From Candidatus Jordarchaeales archaeon (lineage in GTDB: Archaea; Asgardarchaeota; Jordiarchaeia; Jordiarchaeales; Freyrarchaeaceae), in assembly GCA_038889235.1 (NCBI GenBank), contig JAWAHN010000007.1, positions 1-5,369 of the forward strand: a stretch of 5,369 bases of DNA, written 5' to 3'. A program made the position numbers and the translations under genes. Shown here piece by piece: positions 258 through 5,369 of the stretch. A model generated the notes under the pieces. It did no database searches. It saw nothing but the letters and a program-made list of their open reading frames with translations, and was not told the origin of the DNA. How positions within the stretch are numbered: the stretch's first letter is position 1; every line of letters begins with the position of its first letter.

Positions 258-300
258 TATCACATCTACATGTTCTCCGCTCTCTCGCGGATTCAAAGGC

Positions 301-366
301 TTTGAGTTATCCAAGCTCAGGGAGAAAGACCCAGAGCTCTACAGCTACGTTGAGAGCATTGCTCAC
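301..366 (+). pseudogene. Possible short remnant of a protein-coding gene
   Basis: In frame 1 the stretch reads FELSKLREKDPELYSYVESI followed by A. This is a charged, amphipathic, protein-like segment that looks unlike the low-quality translation on either side. No start codon with a ribosome site lies close upstream in frame, and after residue 22 the frame turns Ser/Arg-rich and stops at a TAG near 403. It is best read as a fragment of an eroded gene, but chance cannot be excluded at this length. No family is recognised. Confidence 0.22.
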
Positions 367-446: not shown

Positions 447-470
447 CTTTCAATTCTTTGCATCGTATTC
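447..470 (-). repeat. Isolated CRISPR repeat copy
   Basis: This 24-bp segment begins CTTTCAATTCTTTG and ends CGTATTC. It matches the repeats of the array at 4585-4874 at 22 of 24 positions, differing only at repeat positions 15 and 18 (T to C in each). It has the same orientation as that array: on the minus strand it ends in the ATTGAAAG handle. It lies 4,138 bp from the nearest array repeat. A match of this length and register is very unlikely by chance, so it is a relic of the same array or a sister array. Confidence 0.8.
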
Positions 471-521
471 GTCTGACCCCTCCGCTTCTCGATGCCTTCA
501 GAGTCCTCTCTAAACACGCTT

Positions 522-543
522 TTGTCTCCAAATTTGGAAACAA
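522..543. repeat. 22-bp palindrome with perfect 12-bp core
   Basis: TCCAAATTTGGA (527-538) is a perfect palindrome. After one mismatched pair (C526/A539), four more pairs extend it to 522-543 (TTGT to the left, ACAA to the right). It could be a dimeric-regulator site or a hairpin. No gene start is near it, so its role is unknown. Confidence 0.5.
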
Positions 544-714
544 GATGCGAAGGATCAAGAGGGACTAGGGTAAGACATCGATTGTTCTCTGTATTATGCG
601 TTACTTTGCTTCTCCAAAGCACGAGTGGGAGAAGAATACTGCATAGCTTAAACACTCCTGAGGGATTCCAGCTAGTGGAAGACTGAAACTGCAGAGATCC
701 CTTGAACCCGTGTA

Positions 715-737
715 CTTTCAATGGGCATTGATGTCTC
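715..737 (-). repeat. Partial, decayed CRISPR repeat candidate
   Basis: The first eight bases, CTTTCAAT, are identical to the end of the repeat that encodes the crRNA handle; the rest (GGGCATTGATGTCTC) resembles the consensus only if small gaps are allowed. Its start is 268 bp from the repeat at 447, equal to four intervals of 67 bp, the usual interval in the intact array. The spacing makes a relic repeat more likely than an 8-base coincidence, but the match alone is weak. Confidence 0.35.
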
Positions 738-1080
738 GAAGATTCGTCGAAGACGCGAAGATTTTCACTTTGGGAAGTAATAGGTGAAAAAGCATCCTTC
801 TAGAGCTACTATTACTTGCCAATACCCCCTGTAGTTCAACGGCTTCGCTTCCAAGCAGAGGCTTCTTTTTATTAAGGAATCTAGCTCGCTCAGAGCTTTG
901 CGTAGAAACCTGCATCCAGCGGGGGCGCGTCTGGTTTGGGCTTCATAACGCTGATGTTCCTCACACAAGTATTTGTTGTAAAATCATGCTCAAGCTTAAA
1001 ACCCCAGCATTTTGTGAGACAAACATGCGTTAGTGATAGGATTCTAGGTCCTCATAGGTTAAGGACGGATGTTGAAGTAG

Positions 1081-1118
1081 ATTTTAATTTGAACCAGAGT
1101 TGTATTGAATATTTGGGG
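1081..1118 (+). promoter_or_regulatory. Candidate promoter and weak ribosome site of the restriction-modification gene
   Basis: TTTTAATTT at 1082-1090 is a TATA-like element preceded by purine-rich GAAGTAG, which could serve as BRE. Archaeal initiation about 25 bp downstream would fall near 1110-1115, giving a very short leader. GGGG at 1115-1118 lies 5 bases before the ATG but matches the 16S tail poorly, so the message may be leaderless or nearly so. This is an inference from spacing and composition only. Confidence 0.35.
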
Positions 1119-1123
1119 AAAAG

Positions 1124-4018
1124 ATGATCCCGGAGCCAACTGAAGACACTGTGACTAATCTTCTCGTTAAGGAGTTGGAGAAGTATGGTGTTAAGGCTGT
1201 ATCTTTTCCTAAGATTTCTACGCCCAGTGGTGTTAGAAAGCCTGACATTTGGTGCTCAAATAGCGGAGCATACGTCATTGAGGCTAAGTTCAAGGAGTCT
1301 GATCTAATTAAAGCTATAGCCAAAATTCAGAACGATTACATTAGATGGTTTGACGTTTTAGGTATCAAGGGCGGTTTTGCGGTTCTTTACCCTGAAGAGC
1401 TTATCAAACCTTTGCCTCCTGAAGTTTTAATGAGGAAGGCTCATCAGGCTAAGTTTAAAGTTGTGGCGATGTTTTCGCCGAAGGATGTTAGGAAAAGTTT
1501 TACGGTTTATGAGGGAACTTTGGCTGAAATTGCTAAGATACTTGCTGAGCATATTCTCACTCCTCCGGAACATGTTGAGCCAAGCGTGAATTACATAATA
1601 AAGGCATTGAGGGATTCAGCGGAATACATAACAGCTGCATTAAAACACTTGTCTGGGAGAGTGTTCGAGGATGTTTTTGGCGGGAAAGAAGTCTTTAAAA
1701 ACATTCTTCAATATGAAGAGCAGAAATATCCAGTTGAAACTTTAAGACTTGCTTCAGCCTATTTGCTAGTGAATCAGCTTCTTTTTTACCATGTTCTTTC
1801 TCGAAGAATGCCTGAAAAGTTCCCTGAAATTGACGCTGATGCTATTAAAAAACCAGCTGACTTAAATGTTTATTTTAAAAAAGTTTTGGATGTCAACTAT
1901 AGAGCGGTGTTTTCCTACGATGTAGCCTCAAAGATTCCGCCAAACTTCACGGACCGAGTTAAGGCTGTTATTAACGTTATCAAGGGCTTGTCTCCCGAAA
2001 AAGTGGGCGGAGATCTGCTTGGAACAATATTCCATGACTTGGTTCCTTTCGAAGTAAGAAAGACGGTTGGAGCCTTCTACACAAATGTCTTAGTTGCTGA
2101 ACTTCTTGCTTGGTTATCTATTGATAATCACAATTGCAAGGTCGCAGACTTTGCCGTAGGAAGCGGGGGCTTGCTCGTTGCTGCTTATCGAAGGAAACGC
2201 CATCTTTTGGAGAAGGAGAGAAAGTTCACCGAAGATGATCACAAACGGTTCGTTGGAAACGAACTTTTAGGCGTTGATATCATGCCTTTCGCCGCGAGTA
2301 TTGCTGCATGCCATCTCGCACTTCAATCCCCAGAGCATTTCACTAACAAGGTCAACATTGCGATTTGGGATTCAACAGAGCTTGAACCGGGCAGAACCAT
2401 TCCTTCAATAGCTAGCTTGAGATTTGTGCTTAAAGGGCAAACGACTCTTGAAATGTACCTTAAAAAACCCACTGAGAAATCCAAGGGCGTAGTGAGTCTC
2501 ACCGGGGAGATTCCCGAGGAGATTGTCCTCGAAAAATATGACGTTGTTATCATGAACCCTCCCTTCACAAGACAGGAGAGGATCCCCGAAGAATACAAAG
2601 ACTTATTATTTAAGAGGTTTAAGGACTACAAGGATTATCTTCATAGTCAGATGAGCTATTATGGCTACTTTGTATTGTTGGCTGACAGGTTTCTAAAGGA
2701 TAATGGTAGAATGGCGCTGGTCTTGCCAGCCACAGCCTTACATGTAAGGTCTGCGGAAGGACTCAGAAAACTGTGGGCTGAAAAATACCACGTAGAATAC
2801 ATCATTACTACATGGCATAGGCTCGCCTTTTCAGAAAGTGCGGTTTTCAGGGAGATTTTGCTGATTGCAAAGAAAACAAGACCTTCCAAGGATGCAGTTA
2901 CCAAAATCTGCGTCTTAAAAAGGCTTCCGGATAAGATGTCCAAAGCTCGTGAAATTGCAGACAAAATCAGAGAGCTGAAAAGCGACTATGAAGACGACGA
3001 AATTGCCGTTAAAATACATCCCTATGTAAAATTAACTGCTGATACAACTGACTGGTACAAATTCGTTTCCCTGAGCAATTTGAAACTTATAGAGATGTTG
3101 AATAACCTATTATCTTCTGAAAGGCTTGTCCCATTATCGCAGATTACAGAAGCGAAAGAGTGCGATCTAAGAGATTTCAAGTTCAAGGATTTTCACGGTT
3201 TTATCTTAAAGGATGCTAAGAGAATCCAAAGAAAAACTGATCACTGGTTTTTAGAAAAAGAAAAAGCAAATTCCATAGTGATTAAGCATAGTGAGTTCAT
3301 GCATACAATAGAAGTTCCATTAAATTGTCTAACTAGGGCGCTTAGAAGATTCTCCTATGTGAATACAATTGATGTAACAGAAAATTCAGATTACCTTATT
3401 CAGAGCTGGTTTGATAAAATACCGGAAATGGCAAAATACGCTCTATCATCAAAGGAACTTGATTCTCTTAATTCGAATGTTATCAGTTCATGGAAAAAGA
3501 GGTTTGAGAGAAAGAAAGCCCACTTGCTGTTAGCAAGAAGGCTTTACTTATCTTCTCCTGGTACGTGTTTAATTGCCTTTTACTCAGATGCTCCCATGGT
3601 GGGGGTTGATCTTTGGAGCCTAAGGGGGCTCAACAAAGAGGATGCAAAAATCCTTGCACTATGGCTAAACAGTTCCATAAACATCCTTCAACTCTTATAC
3701 CTTGGAGTTGCGTGCGAAGGACCATGGATGAAGATTCACGACTACATGTTCAACGGACTTCTCGTCCCGAATCCGAAAACGCTAACAATAGAAGAAAAAG
3801 AAGAACTACTTGAATTATTCAGAAAACTTGGAAAAGCGCCCTTTGAAAGCATAACAAAACAGCTAGAAAATGAAGACGAAAAAAGAAAAGCCATAGACAA
3901 AGCTTGGCTAAAATTACTTGGATACAAAGGAGATCCGGAAACATTCTTAACGCAAATTTACAGAGCTATTTTGGAAGAAATAAAGATTATTGAGCAATTA
4001 ATGCACGCGCGTGCATAG
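1124..4018 (+). CDS. Type IIG-like restriction-modification enzyme: PD-(D/E)XK nuclease fused to N6-adenine DNA methyltransferase
   Basis: This is a 964-residue single-chain enzyme expected to cut unmodified DNA at or near a specific site and to protect host sites by N6-adenine methylation using S-adenosylmethionine. Residues 1-130 form a nuclease domain with PD-(D/E)XK signature: KPDIW (D41) followed by VIEAKFK (E53, K55), after a helix at 6-21. Residues 150-310 are a helical linker. The methyltransferase shows motif X (GAFYTN, 316-321), motif I (ADFAVGSGG, 341-349), motif II acidic residue D385 (LLGVDI), D416 (IWDS), catalytic motif IV NPPF (478-481) and a VLP strand (533-535). The order X-I-IV fits the gamma class. 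Residues from about 640 to 890 are the probable target-recognition region, followed by a charged helical tail. In-frame TGA at 1106-1108 makes the ATG at 1124 the first start. No separate HsdS or HsdR is present, consistent with a self-contained system. Motif I has DF where DP is common. A PglX-like methyltransferase is less likely because the N-terminal nuclease motif is intact. Confidence 0.9.
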   Translation: MIPEPTEDTVTNLLVKELEKYGVKAVSFPKISTPSGVRKPDIWCSNSGAYVIEAKFKESDLIKAIAKIQNDYIRWFDVLGIKGGFAVLYPEELIKPLPPEVLMRKAHQAKFKVVAMFSPKDVRKSFTVYEGTLAEIAKILAEHILTPPEHVEPSVNYIIKALRDSAEYITAALKHLSGRVFEDVFGGKEVFKNILQYEEQKYPVETLRLASAYLLVNQLLFYHVLSRRMPEKFPEIDADAIKKPADLNVYFKKVLDVNYRAVFSYDVASKIPPNFTDRVKAVINVIKGLSPEKVGGDLLGTIFHDLVPFEVRKTVGAFYTNVLVAELLAWLSIDNHNCKVADFAVGSGGLLVAAYRRKRHLLEKERKFTEDDHKRFVGNELLGVDIMPFAASIAACHLALQSPEHFTNKVNIAIWDSTELEPGRTIPSIASLRFVLKGQTTLEMYLKKPTEKSKGVVSLTGEIPEEIVLEKYDVVIMNPPFTRQERIPEEYKDLLFKRFKDYKDYLHSQMSYYGYFVLLADRFLKDNGRMALVLPATALHVRSAEGLRKLWAEKYHVEYIITTWHRLAFSESAVFREILLIAKKTRPSKDAVTKICVLKRLPDKMSKAREIADKIRELKSDYEDDEIAVKIHPYVKLTADTTDWYKFVSLSNLKLIEMLNNLLSSERLVPLSQITEAKECDLRDFKFKDFHGFILKDAKRIQRKTDHWFLEKEKANSIVIKHSEFMHTIEVPLNCLTRALRRFSYVNTIDVTENSDYLIQSWFDKIPEMAKYALSSKELDSLNSNVISSWKKRFERKKAHLLLARRLYLSSPGTCLIAFYSDAPMVGVDLWSLRGLNKEDAKILALWLNSSINILQLLYLGVACEGPWMKIHDYMFNGLLVPNPKTLTIEEKEELLELFRKLGKAPFESITKQLENEDEKRKAIDKAWLKLLGYKGDPETFLTQIYRAILEEIKIIEQLMHARA
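4001..4016. repeat. Perfect 16-bp palindrome over the end of the restriction-modification gene
   Basis: ATGCACGCGCGTGCAT equals its own reverse complement. It encodes the last residues (MHARA) and its final base is the first base of the TAG stop. Its CG-rich centre stands out in AT-leaning sequence, and there is no T-run after it as in a simple terminator. It could be a binding site for a dimeric protein, a recombination junction or a transcript hairpin; nothing further in the sequence decides. Confidence 0.6.
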
Positions 4019-4025
4019 GTATCTC

Positions 4026-4280
4026 ATGAAGGATCTCTCTAAGGTCATGTTTCCACCTCGGGACGTAGTAGAAGCATCTACGTTGGAGAGCTTTTACCTC
4101 TGAAGTAAGCTATCCAAGGTTAGCAGAGTTTGCTGAAGTCTGTTCAGGTGCAATTAATACTCGAGCACGGAGGTAGCACTGGCTAGGTTTATTCTTGAGA
4201 AGCAAAACGAAAGCTCAAACAAGTATGTAATGCAATTACTTTCCACCTTCCCGAGTCTACCTCTTTGTGAACTTGATTAG
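4026..4280 (+). pseudogene. Frameshifted gene immediately downstream of the restriction-modification gene
   Basis: An ATG lies 7 bases after the preceding stop, with AGGT at 4017-4020 as a possible ribosome site, so translation would be coupled to the enzyme upstream. The first frame reads MKDLSKVMFPPRDVVEASTL and stops at a TGA (4101-4103). The next frame continues at once with protein-like sequence (SEVSYPRLAEFAEVCSGAIN, then TRARR) to a TAG at 4174-4176. The original frame then resumes (EVALARFILEKQNESSNKYV and on) to a TAG at 4278-4280. A shift one way and back again would restore a protein of roughly 80 residues. Since the 2.9-kb gene beside it is intact, real decay is more likely than sequencing error. 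No family is recognised. It could be a lost companion of the restriction-modification enzyme or an unrelated fragment. Confidence 0.42.
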
Positions 4281-4418
4281 CGCATTACGTGCTTCTCTCC
4301 GGGTGCCTCCTTCCTCTGCTTTCCCTTTTTTCCTGGGTAGTTCGACTCCCGCTGCTTCTTCTCCTCTGATAGCCTCCGGTTCAGCCTCGCACGCTCTCGC
4401 AAGTTCTCTCTTAGATGT
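4257..4418 (-). pseudogene. Open minus-strand stretch without a start, possible gene remnant
   Basis: Between a TAG at 4421-4419 and a TAG at 4259-4257 the minus strand is open for 53 codons and reads as a charged, protein-like sequence, including RACEAEPEAIRGEEAAGVEL and PRKKGKAEEGGTRREARNAL. It has no ATG, GTG or TTG near its beginning, so it is not an intact gene. The plus strand over the same bases gives only Ser/Ala/Pro-rich translation, as expected opposite a Glu/Arg/Lys-rich frame. It may be a 5'-truncated remnant. Composition alone supports it, and the function is unknown. Confidence 0.28.
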
Positions 4419-4497
4419 CTACTTCGGTGTTAAAGTAAGGAACTACGATAAAGCACTCGAGCTGGTGGGGCGCCTTGAAACACAAAAGGGACTGTAA
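4405..4497 (+). pseudogene. C-terminal remnant of an unknown gene
   Basis: The frame reads SLLDVYFGVKVRNYDKALEL then VGRLETQKGL and stops at the TAA at 4495-4497. This part looks like a genuine helical C-terminus, whereas the same frame upstream (4267-4400) becomes Ser/Ala/Pro-rich and is better explained as antisense to the minus-strand remnant. A strong ribosome site and a new ATG follow 13 bases after this stop, the arrangement of two adjacent genes in an operon, which supports the tail being real. The 5' part is missing or eroded. No family is recognised. Confidence 0.35.
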
Positions 4498-4499
4498 AC

Positions 4500-4567
4500 G
4501 GAGGTTTGCTATGATTGCTATTACAATGTTTCAACTATTTGCCCCCATGCCCCATCCCTCTGCATGA
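4500..4567 (+). pseudogene. Truncated gene start with good Shine-Dalgarno, ending before the CRISPR array
   Basis: GGAGGT at 4500-4505 is followed after 5 bases by ATG at 4511. The frame reads MIAITMFQLFAPMPHPSA and stops at a TGA (4565-4567), 17 bases before the first CRISPR repeat. The ribosome site is strong and the first residues are a plausible protein start, but 18 codons is very short and the tail looks random. It is probably the 5' end of a gene cut off where array-derived sequence begins; a real small peptide is the alternative. Confidence 0.35.
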
Positions 4568-4584
4568 TCAAAAAGTACGAAAAC

Positions 4585-4874
4585 CTTTCAATTCTCTCTA
4601 TTGTATTCTCGGAAGCGCTAACAACGCTACTGCTGTAGGCCTGTTGCACCTCTTTCAATTCTTTGTATTGGTATTCCTACATGCTGAAGCTGAGGAGGAT
4701 CAAGCGATTCTACGACATCTTCCAATTCTTTGTATTGTATTCCGCGAAGACATCATAGATGTCATTGTTGTTGATAAGTGGACCTTTCAATTTTTTGTAT
4801 TGTATTCACAAGCTCATGTACTCGTGTATCAGCGCCTTGATCCACGCGTGCTTTCAATTCTTTCTATTGTATTC
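4585..4874 (-). CRISPR. Small CRISPR array, five repeats and four spacers, ATTGAAAG handle type
   Basis: Repeats lie at 4585-4608, 4652-4676, 4719-4742, 4784-4807 and 4851-4874. Each begins CTTTCAATTCTTT or a close variant and ends ATTGTATTC. Spacers are 43, 42, 41 and 43 bp (4609-4651, 4677-4718, 4743-4783, 4808-4850) and unrelated to one another. On the minus strand each repeat ends in ATTGAAAG, the 8-nt crRNA 5' handle typical of archaeal type I-A and III systems, so the array reads from 4874 toward 4585. No two repeats are identical: the second has an extra G, the third carries T to C inside the handle (ATTGGAAG), the fourth has C to T, and the first and fifth vary in the middle. Such divergence suggests an old array no longer growing. 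No cas gene is present in the window. The 122-codon open frame across the array is spurious. Confidence 0.93.
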
Positions 4875-4970
4875 TGTGTGTGAGCTTTGATTTCGTCTCC
4901 TTAGTTTTGTTTACGAGGGTGGGGTTTTAAGCTTTAGGGTTGATCAAGTCTGTGGATGTTTTTATGGTGT
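4875..4970 (-). promoter_or_regulatory. Probable CRISPR leader and promoter
   Basis: The repeat orientation places the leader on the high-coordinate side. Read on the minus strand this stretch is A-rich, with two TATA-like elements: CATAAAAA (4966 to 4959) and GCTTAAAAC (4932 to 4924). The second lies about 50 bp before the first repeat, so transcription would start about 25 bp upstream of it. No open frame with a ribosome site occupies this segment. The leader extent is inferred from position and composition; no family leader motif is recognised. Confidence 0.4.
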
Positions 4971-5254: not shown

Positions 5255-5369
5255 TTAAGCAGTTGCTTTGATCTGTTCTTCAAGTGTTTTCAAGTAGGAT
5301 TTTCCTTCTTCACTAATAGCGTACGCGTTTCTGCCGAGTGCTCTAACCTTACCTTCCTTCTTAAGCCTT
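5255..5369 (-). CDS. Winged-helix DNA-binding regulator, C-terminus (partial)
   Basis: The visible 37 residues are the C-terminal end of a minus-strand gene that begins beyond the right edge, with a TAA at 5257-5255. The sequence RLKKEGKVRALGRNAYAISE followed by EGKSYLKTLEEQIKATA is the hallmark of a small archaeal winged helix-turn-helix protein. The end of the recognition helix (LKKEGKV) leads into the beta-wing (RALGRNAYAIS), the conserved 'EEGK.YL' turn and a final helix that often mediates dimerisation. Such proteins bind promoter DNA as homodimers. It lies upstream of the CRISPR leader on the same strand, about 380 bp from the first repeat. That could be coincidental, or it could regulate local genes. 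The subfamily cannot be set without the N-terminus. Confidence 0.8.
   Translation of the reverse strand, partial: RLKKEGKVRALGRNAYAISEEGKSYLKTLEEQIKATA

Follow-up and report, generated by a model that had tools for sequence, protein, structure and literature searches.

The 5,369-nucleotide stretch of DNA analysed here (the window) carries a lone CRISPR repeat and a five-repeat CRISPR array on either side of an apparently intact Type IIG-like restriction-modification gene. On balance, and with modest confidence, we favor the interpretation that both sets of repeats belonged to one CRISPR array, whose decaying trailer (old) end was split by enzyme-carrying DNA. The earlier note had described a 22/24 repeat match at 447-470 in the orientation of the array, with the intact gene between the two, and our re-check of the sequence agrees. 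The features of the window are the following:

283-351, plus strand: decayed C-terminal fragment of an archaeal primase with a PriX domain, a mobile-element-type gene, recognized from relatives' proteins
447-470, plus coordinates, in array orientation: stray CRISPR repeat CTTTCAATTCTTTGCATCGTATTC, matching 22 of 24 positions, with 2 mismatches to the consensus CTTTCAATTCTTTGTATTGTATTC
989-1006, plus strand: leader-like 18-mer, 17/18 identical to the leader core at 4937-4920 and pointing toward the enzyme gene
1124-4018, plus strand: apparently intact Type IIG-like restriction-modification gene of 964 aa, identified by Pfam, PADLOC and motifs
4260-4412, minus strand: remnant of the C-terminal end of another Type IIG gene, distinct from that at 1124-4018, identified by similarity to the related genomes G653 and G697
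4585-4874, minus strand: five-repeat CRISPR array, with repeats at 4585, 4652, 4719, 4784 and 4851
4875-4940, minus strand: leader with promoter-like core AAGCTTAAAACCCC, identified by similarity to relatives' leaders and by a profile
5258-5369, minus strand: open frame running off the contig, C-terminal 37 aa, wHTH-like by eye

The repeats are 24 nt long and, within the array, are spaced 65-67 nt start to start by spacers of 41-43 nt, no two of which are alike, giving the regular succession of near-identical repeats that defines a CRISPR array. Relative to CTTTCAATTCTTTGTATTGTATTC, the array copies at 4719, 4784 and 4851 have 1 mismatch each, that at 4585 has 2 and that at 4652 has a 1-nt insertion; among them, only the 4851 copy is identical to the repeat of the relative G538. 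That its repeats all differ slightly from one another would fit an array that has stopped acquiring spacers. The stray repeat starts 4138 bp before the first array repeat, and all six copies share one orientation. Apart from these, the best ungapped match to the repeat in the window shows 8 mismatches, and the whole 2.14-Mb bin holds 5 sites with ≤3 mismatches, all on the window contig (a count that leaves out the indel copy at 4652), while the reversed repeat gave 0 sites at this threshold across the bin. About 1e-7 matches with ≤2 mismatches are expected by chance on both strands of the window (2557/4^24 x 10,700), and a chance origin of the 447 repeat is excluded. The earlier note had counted an absence of further relic repeats near 447 against its own reading, and this is what we found: a scan of the window, which is a complete contig (C7) ending at positions 1 and 5369, revealed no other relic near 447 or between it and the array.

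The repeat family ends on the minus strand in ATTGAAAG, the 5' crRNA handle of Sulfolobus-type repeats, so that the array would be transcribed leftwards; this handle is intact in the 447 copy. The leader lies to the right of 4874, which points to the same direction of transcription and places 447 on the trailer (oldest) side. Leader conservation is seen at 4875-4913, which aligns to the relatives G617 and G538: the repeat plus leader is 81% identical to G617 contig C4 over 63 nt, and the leader side 91% identical to G538 over 45 nt. When 126 nt of the leader region without the repeat were compared with G538 alone the match was weak, 25/500 shuffles being as good. When 609 kb were scanned with a profile trained on relatives only, the window leader scored highest of all sites not used for training, by a narrow margin. 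Leftward transcription of the short array may still start from this leader. No leader was found beside 447. The bin's Cas1 loci are on contigs C2 and C4, and the array examined on C2 has a different repeat.

We searched relatives around the Bathyarchaeia genome that carries the nearest enzyme homologue. The repeat family is present in ten of them (G538, G573, G588, G610, G617, G621, G624, G626, G627 and G628) and as a single copy in G653. A survey of 15 related arrays, each with its own consensus repeat, covered about 140 kb on the trailer side and 61 kb on the leader side. At three loci a stray repeat in the orientation of the array lay over 300 bp away from it, each time on the trailer side (window, -4138; G588, -2136; G538, -319), with an additional 5-mismatch site in G588 at -6430. 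The leader side (about 61 kb) yielded 0 stray repeats in this orientation, and reversed-repeat controls yielded 0 stray sites. The lone leader-side stray copy, in G610, has the opposite orientation and its own leader, and is thus read as a contracted sister array. The closest parallel to the window layout is the G588 locus (L148 7252-9964, on a 1.88-Mb contig): its stray repeat is followed by an open frame of 113 aa, an intact gene for an MFS transporter and a short open piece, and then by nine repeats, the short piece ending at the first repeat as an apparent truncated fragment. The G538 stray repeat lies 0.3 kb beyond the trailer end with no gene between. Since the 447 repeat is trailer-side and in the same orientation as the G588 and G538 strays, the survey favors a detached trailer end; three loci carry this orientation argument, and their agreement would arise by chance 1 in 8 times (two independent loci plus the window).

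Old repeats decay at the leader-distal end of arrays. A model that accommodates these data is that the array once ended at or close to the 447 repeat, that DNA with a stand-alone Type IIG gene and the tail of another would later have come between it and the five leader-proximal repeats, and that any intervening repeats would then have been lost. We infer both the common origin of 447 and the array and the insertion of the segment. The same repeat family stands in the same orientation on both sides, and the trailer-side position, the lack of a leader at 447, the G588 and G538 parallels and the separability of the enzyme speak for the earlier note's split by an enzyme segment, which is plausible; relic repeats, a junction and an intact allele did not turn up. 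Target-site duplications and terminal inverted repeats were looked for and none was found, and the relatives searched contain no uninterrupted (empty-site) allele. Of the two signs that the earlier note had proposed to seek elsewhere, continuous repeats were not found, and homologues of the enzyme were found outside arrays. A special arrangement with a defence gene set within a CRISPR array is not supported: the G588 parallel carries a transporter, so the cargo is not defence-specific and its being a restriction enzyme here is probably incidental. The 447 repeat is most likely functionless.

A possible explanation, though one to which we give clearly less weight, is the alternative raised in the earlier note: the window held two sister arrays with the same repeat, the left one now reduced to a single repeat without a leader, and the enzyme either an original feature of the intervening DNA or an independent arrival. 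Several arrays per genome with near-identical repeats are usual in this group, with two or more repeat loci in each of G610, G617, G628 and G573, and therefore this explanation keeps a sizeable share. Single-repeat relics exist in G610 (8.7 kb from the array, opposite, with leader), G627, G573, G653 and G626, and G626 holds a leaderless stray repeat. However, most such relics keep their leader, as those of G610, G627 and G573 do, whereas 447 shows no leader relic; the nearby relic of G610 is in opposite orientation, and 447 shares the trailer-side position and orientation of the G588 and G538 strays. The G610 single repeat with its leader (L122 19264-19605) overlaps the C-terminal end of a nucleotidyltransferase-like frame. 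In G653, the sole repeat copy (L143 1739-1762, 1 mismatch) has leader-like sequence on its right, and the genome also holds the full-length version of the window's second Type IIG gene.

The enzyme looks intact from its sequence. It matches the Pfam families Eco57I (7e-19) and N6_Mtase (6e-16) and the PADLOC model REase_MTase_IIG, and it combines in one chain, as Type IIG enzymes do, a PD-(D/E)xK-like nuclease motif (PD...EAK, near residues 40-55) with the methylase motifs, a SAM motif near 342-349 and NPPF at 478-481; all three are invariant across 3-4 aligned homologues of 57-73% identity. Such a protein is predicted to cut and methylate DNA alone, independently of CRISPR, if it is active as we presume. 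It shares the nuclease and N6-adenine methylase motifs in one chain with stand-alone Type IIG enzymes (Eco57I/MmeI-type) and as a protein is nothing unusual; only its genomic position differs. The nearest homologue, at 73% identity, is in a Bathyarchaeia genome (locus L009), and no CRISPR array lies within 8 kb on each side of the homologues in L009 and L010. G538 and G573, both with the window repeat, lack an enzyme homologue, and in G458 a partial homologue and an array of a more distant repeat are ~8 kb apart. Because the nearest homologues are outside arrays and two repeat-bearing genomes are without the enzyme, enzyme and array are separable modules.

The several gene fragments that the earlier note had placed between the repeats are partly there: the 4260-4412 Type IIG relic is inside the interval, and the PriX relic at 283-351 is outside, to the left of 447. 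The 4260-4412 relic is 44-60% identical over 50-54 aa to proteins of G653 and G697 (DNA, 74-75% over 130-216 nt), the G653 protein being the full-length version of this gene (Eco57I/N6_Mtase with HSDR_N). The 283-351 fragment matches PriX proteins of G573 contig C76 (61% identity over 23 aa, E 2e-5) and of G503 (61% over 18 aa); its DNA is 85-93% identical to relatives over 30-40 nt, and alone it gives a weak PriX match (E 0.08). Against Pfam, the left and right gene fragments alone gave nothing over the cut-off, their identity coming via relatives only, and neither did the 5258-5369 frame. Overall, the region gives the impression of defence and mobile-element genes in decay. The window has 0 Rfam matches, 0 tRNAs and no match to phage records, and searching viral contigs with 20-21-nt seeds of the four array spacers gave no exact match. 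An 83% match between 542-559 and 4687-4704 was read as chance, as 37/300 shuffles reach the same score. In G621 (L125 9499-10654), an array of two repeats has an integrase-family gene and a truncated PriX-primase relic immediately at its trailer end.

Insertions in CRISPR arrays are rare in Sulfolobales, according to a review which describes a spacer that received an IS under selection and, in the leaderless CRISPR locus F of S. solfataricus, two repeats separated by 899 bp derived from a pNOB8-like conjugative plasmid (PMC4390879). Locus F resembles our locus in having mobile-element DNA between two CRISPR repeats of an archaeon, but its insert measures 899 bp whereas that of the window spans 4.1 kb with an intact restriction-modification gene and has one repeat only beyond it; by analogy, the window would be a larger case of the locus F kind, with an intact gene. 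Contracted or degenerate trailer ends show the same decay of old repeats, whereas here the stray repeat is kilobases off with an intact gene between. It is rather unlikely that in this archaeal group foreign genes repeatedly settle at the trailer end of arrays, perhaps by repeat-repeat recombination between an array and a mobile element, which would leave genes framed by same-orientation repeats (the enzyme here, the transporter in G588). If this trailer-side layout recurs widely, the old ends of arrays would be places where non-spacer genes are taken up and retained, and such events could be traced by the stray repeats that mark them. So far the evidence amounts to three loci from a single archaeal group, the cargo being a restriction enzyme in one, a transporter in another and nothing in the third, and the layout looks like the ordinary break-up of an array's old end, not a special defence device.

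It is quite improbable that the 447 repeat came from the mini-array of a mobile element (virus or plasmid) of which the PriX relic, ending about 100 bp from 447, would be another piece. Bathyarchaeia viruses with mini-arrays, one with the host repeat, set a precedent (PMC10848311); however, a search of viral contigs for the repeat, with one position left free, gave no exact match, the G621 PriX relic has the opposite orientation relative to its array, and the PriX genes of G573 C76 and G503 have no repeat nearby. Still more doubtful is a CreA-like ectopic regulatory repeat whose RNA would guide Cascade to a promoter, perhaps the enzyme's. Ectopic repeats have known precedent (PMC9458426, PMC8501985), and 447, like those of CreTA, is a lone degenerate repeat outside an array with its 8-nt handle intact, but there is no second repeat and no seed complementarity of the pseudo-spacer to a promoter: its best match in the window lies off the enzyme promoter and, being no better than chance (28 and 83 of 200 shuffles), argues against such a role. 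A misassembly falsely joining 447 and the array, imaginable in a short contig whose bin is otherwise of different composition, is hardly credible given the long intact ORF, the lack of long repeats to mislead an assembler and the parallel layout on the 1.88-Mb contig of G588. A circular contig was rejected, as there is no terminal overlap.

The 5,369-bp window contig belongs to a 2.14-Mb bin of eight contigs whose own chromosomal array repeat, CTTTCAACTCTCTCGCTGAGATTC, is unlike that of the window. The G+C content is about 0.50 for the bin and 0.42 for the window, and the window-to-bin tetranucleotide correlation is 0.68 against a bin mean of 0.80, at the low side of the bin's range. These differences, together with the occurrence of the repeat family and the enzyme homologue in Bathyarchaeia-related genomes, suggest that the contig is probably mis-binned and from a Bathyarchaeia-related archaeon. 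In composition, the bin's three ~5-kb contigs (C6, C7 and C8) stand apart from its large ones, and they may represent mis-binned DNA or mobile elements.

Finally, the array leader (4920-4937) and a site 118-135 nt upstream of the enzyme start share the 18-nt sequence CTMAAGCTTAAAACCCCA, in the same direction relative to transcription. Taking 989-1006 as a second leader was rejected, for it has no leader-like extension and falls outside the top 30 of the relatives' leader profile. Near the enzyme, the motif may be a shared promoter element or a leader scrap; 0/500 shuffles reach the level of the match between 989-1006 and 4920-4937, and elsewhere the motif is almost confined to relatives' leaders.
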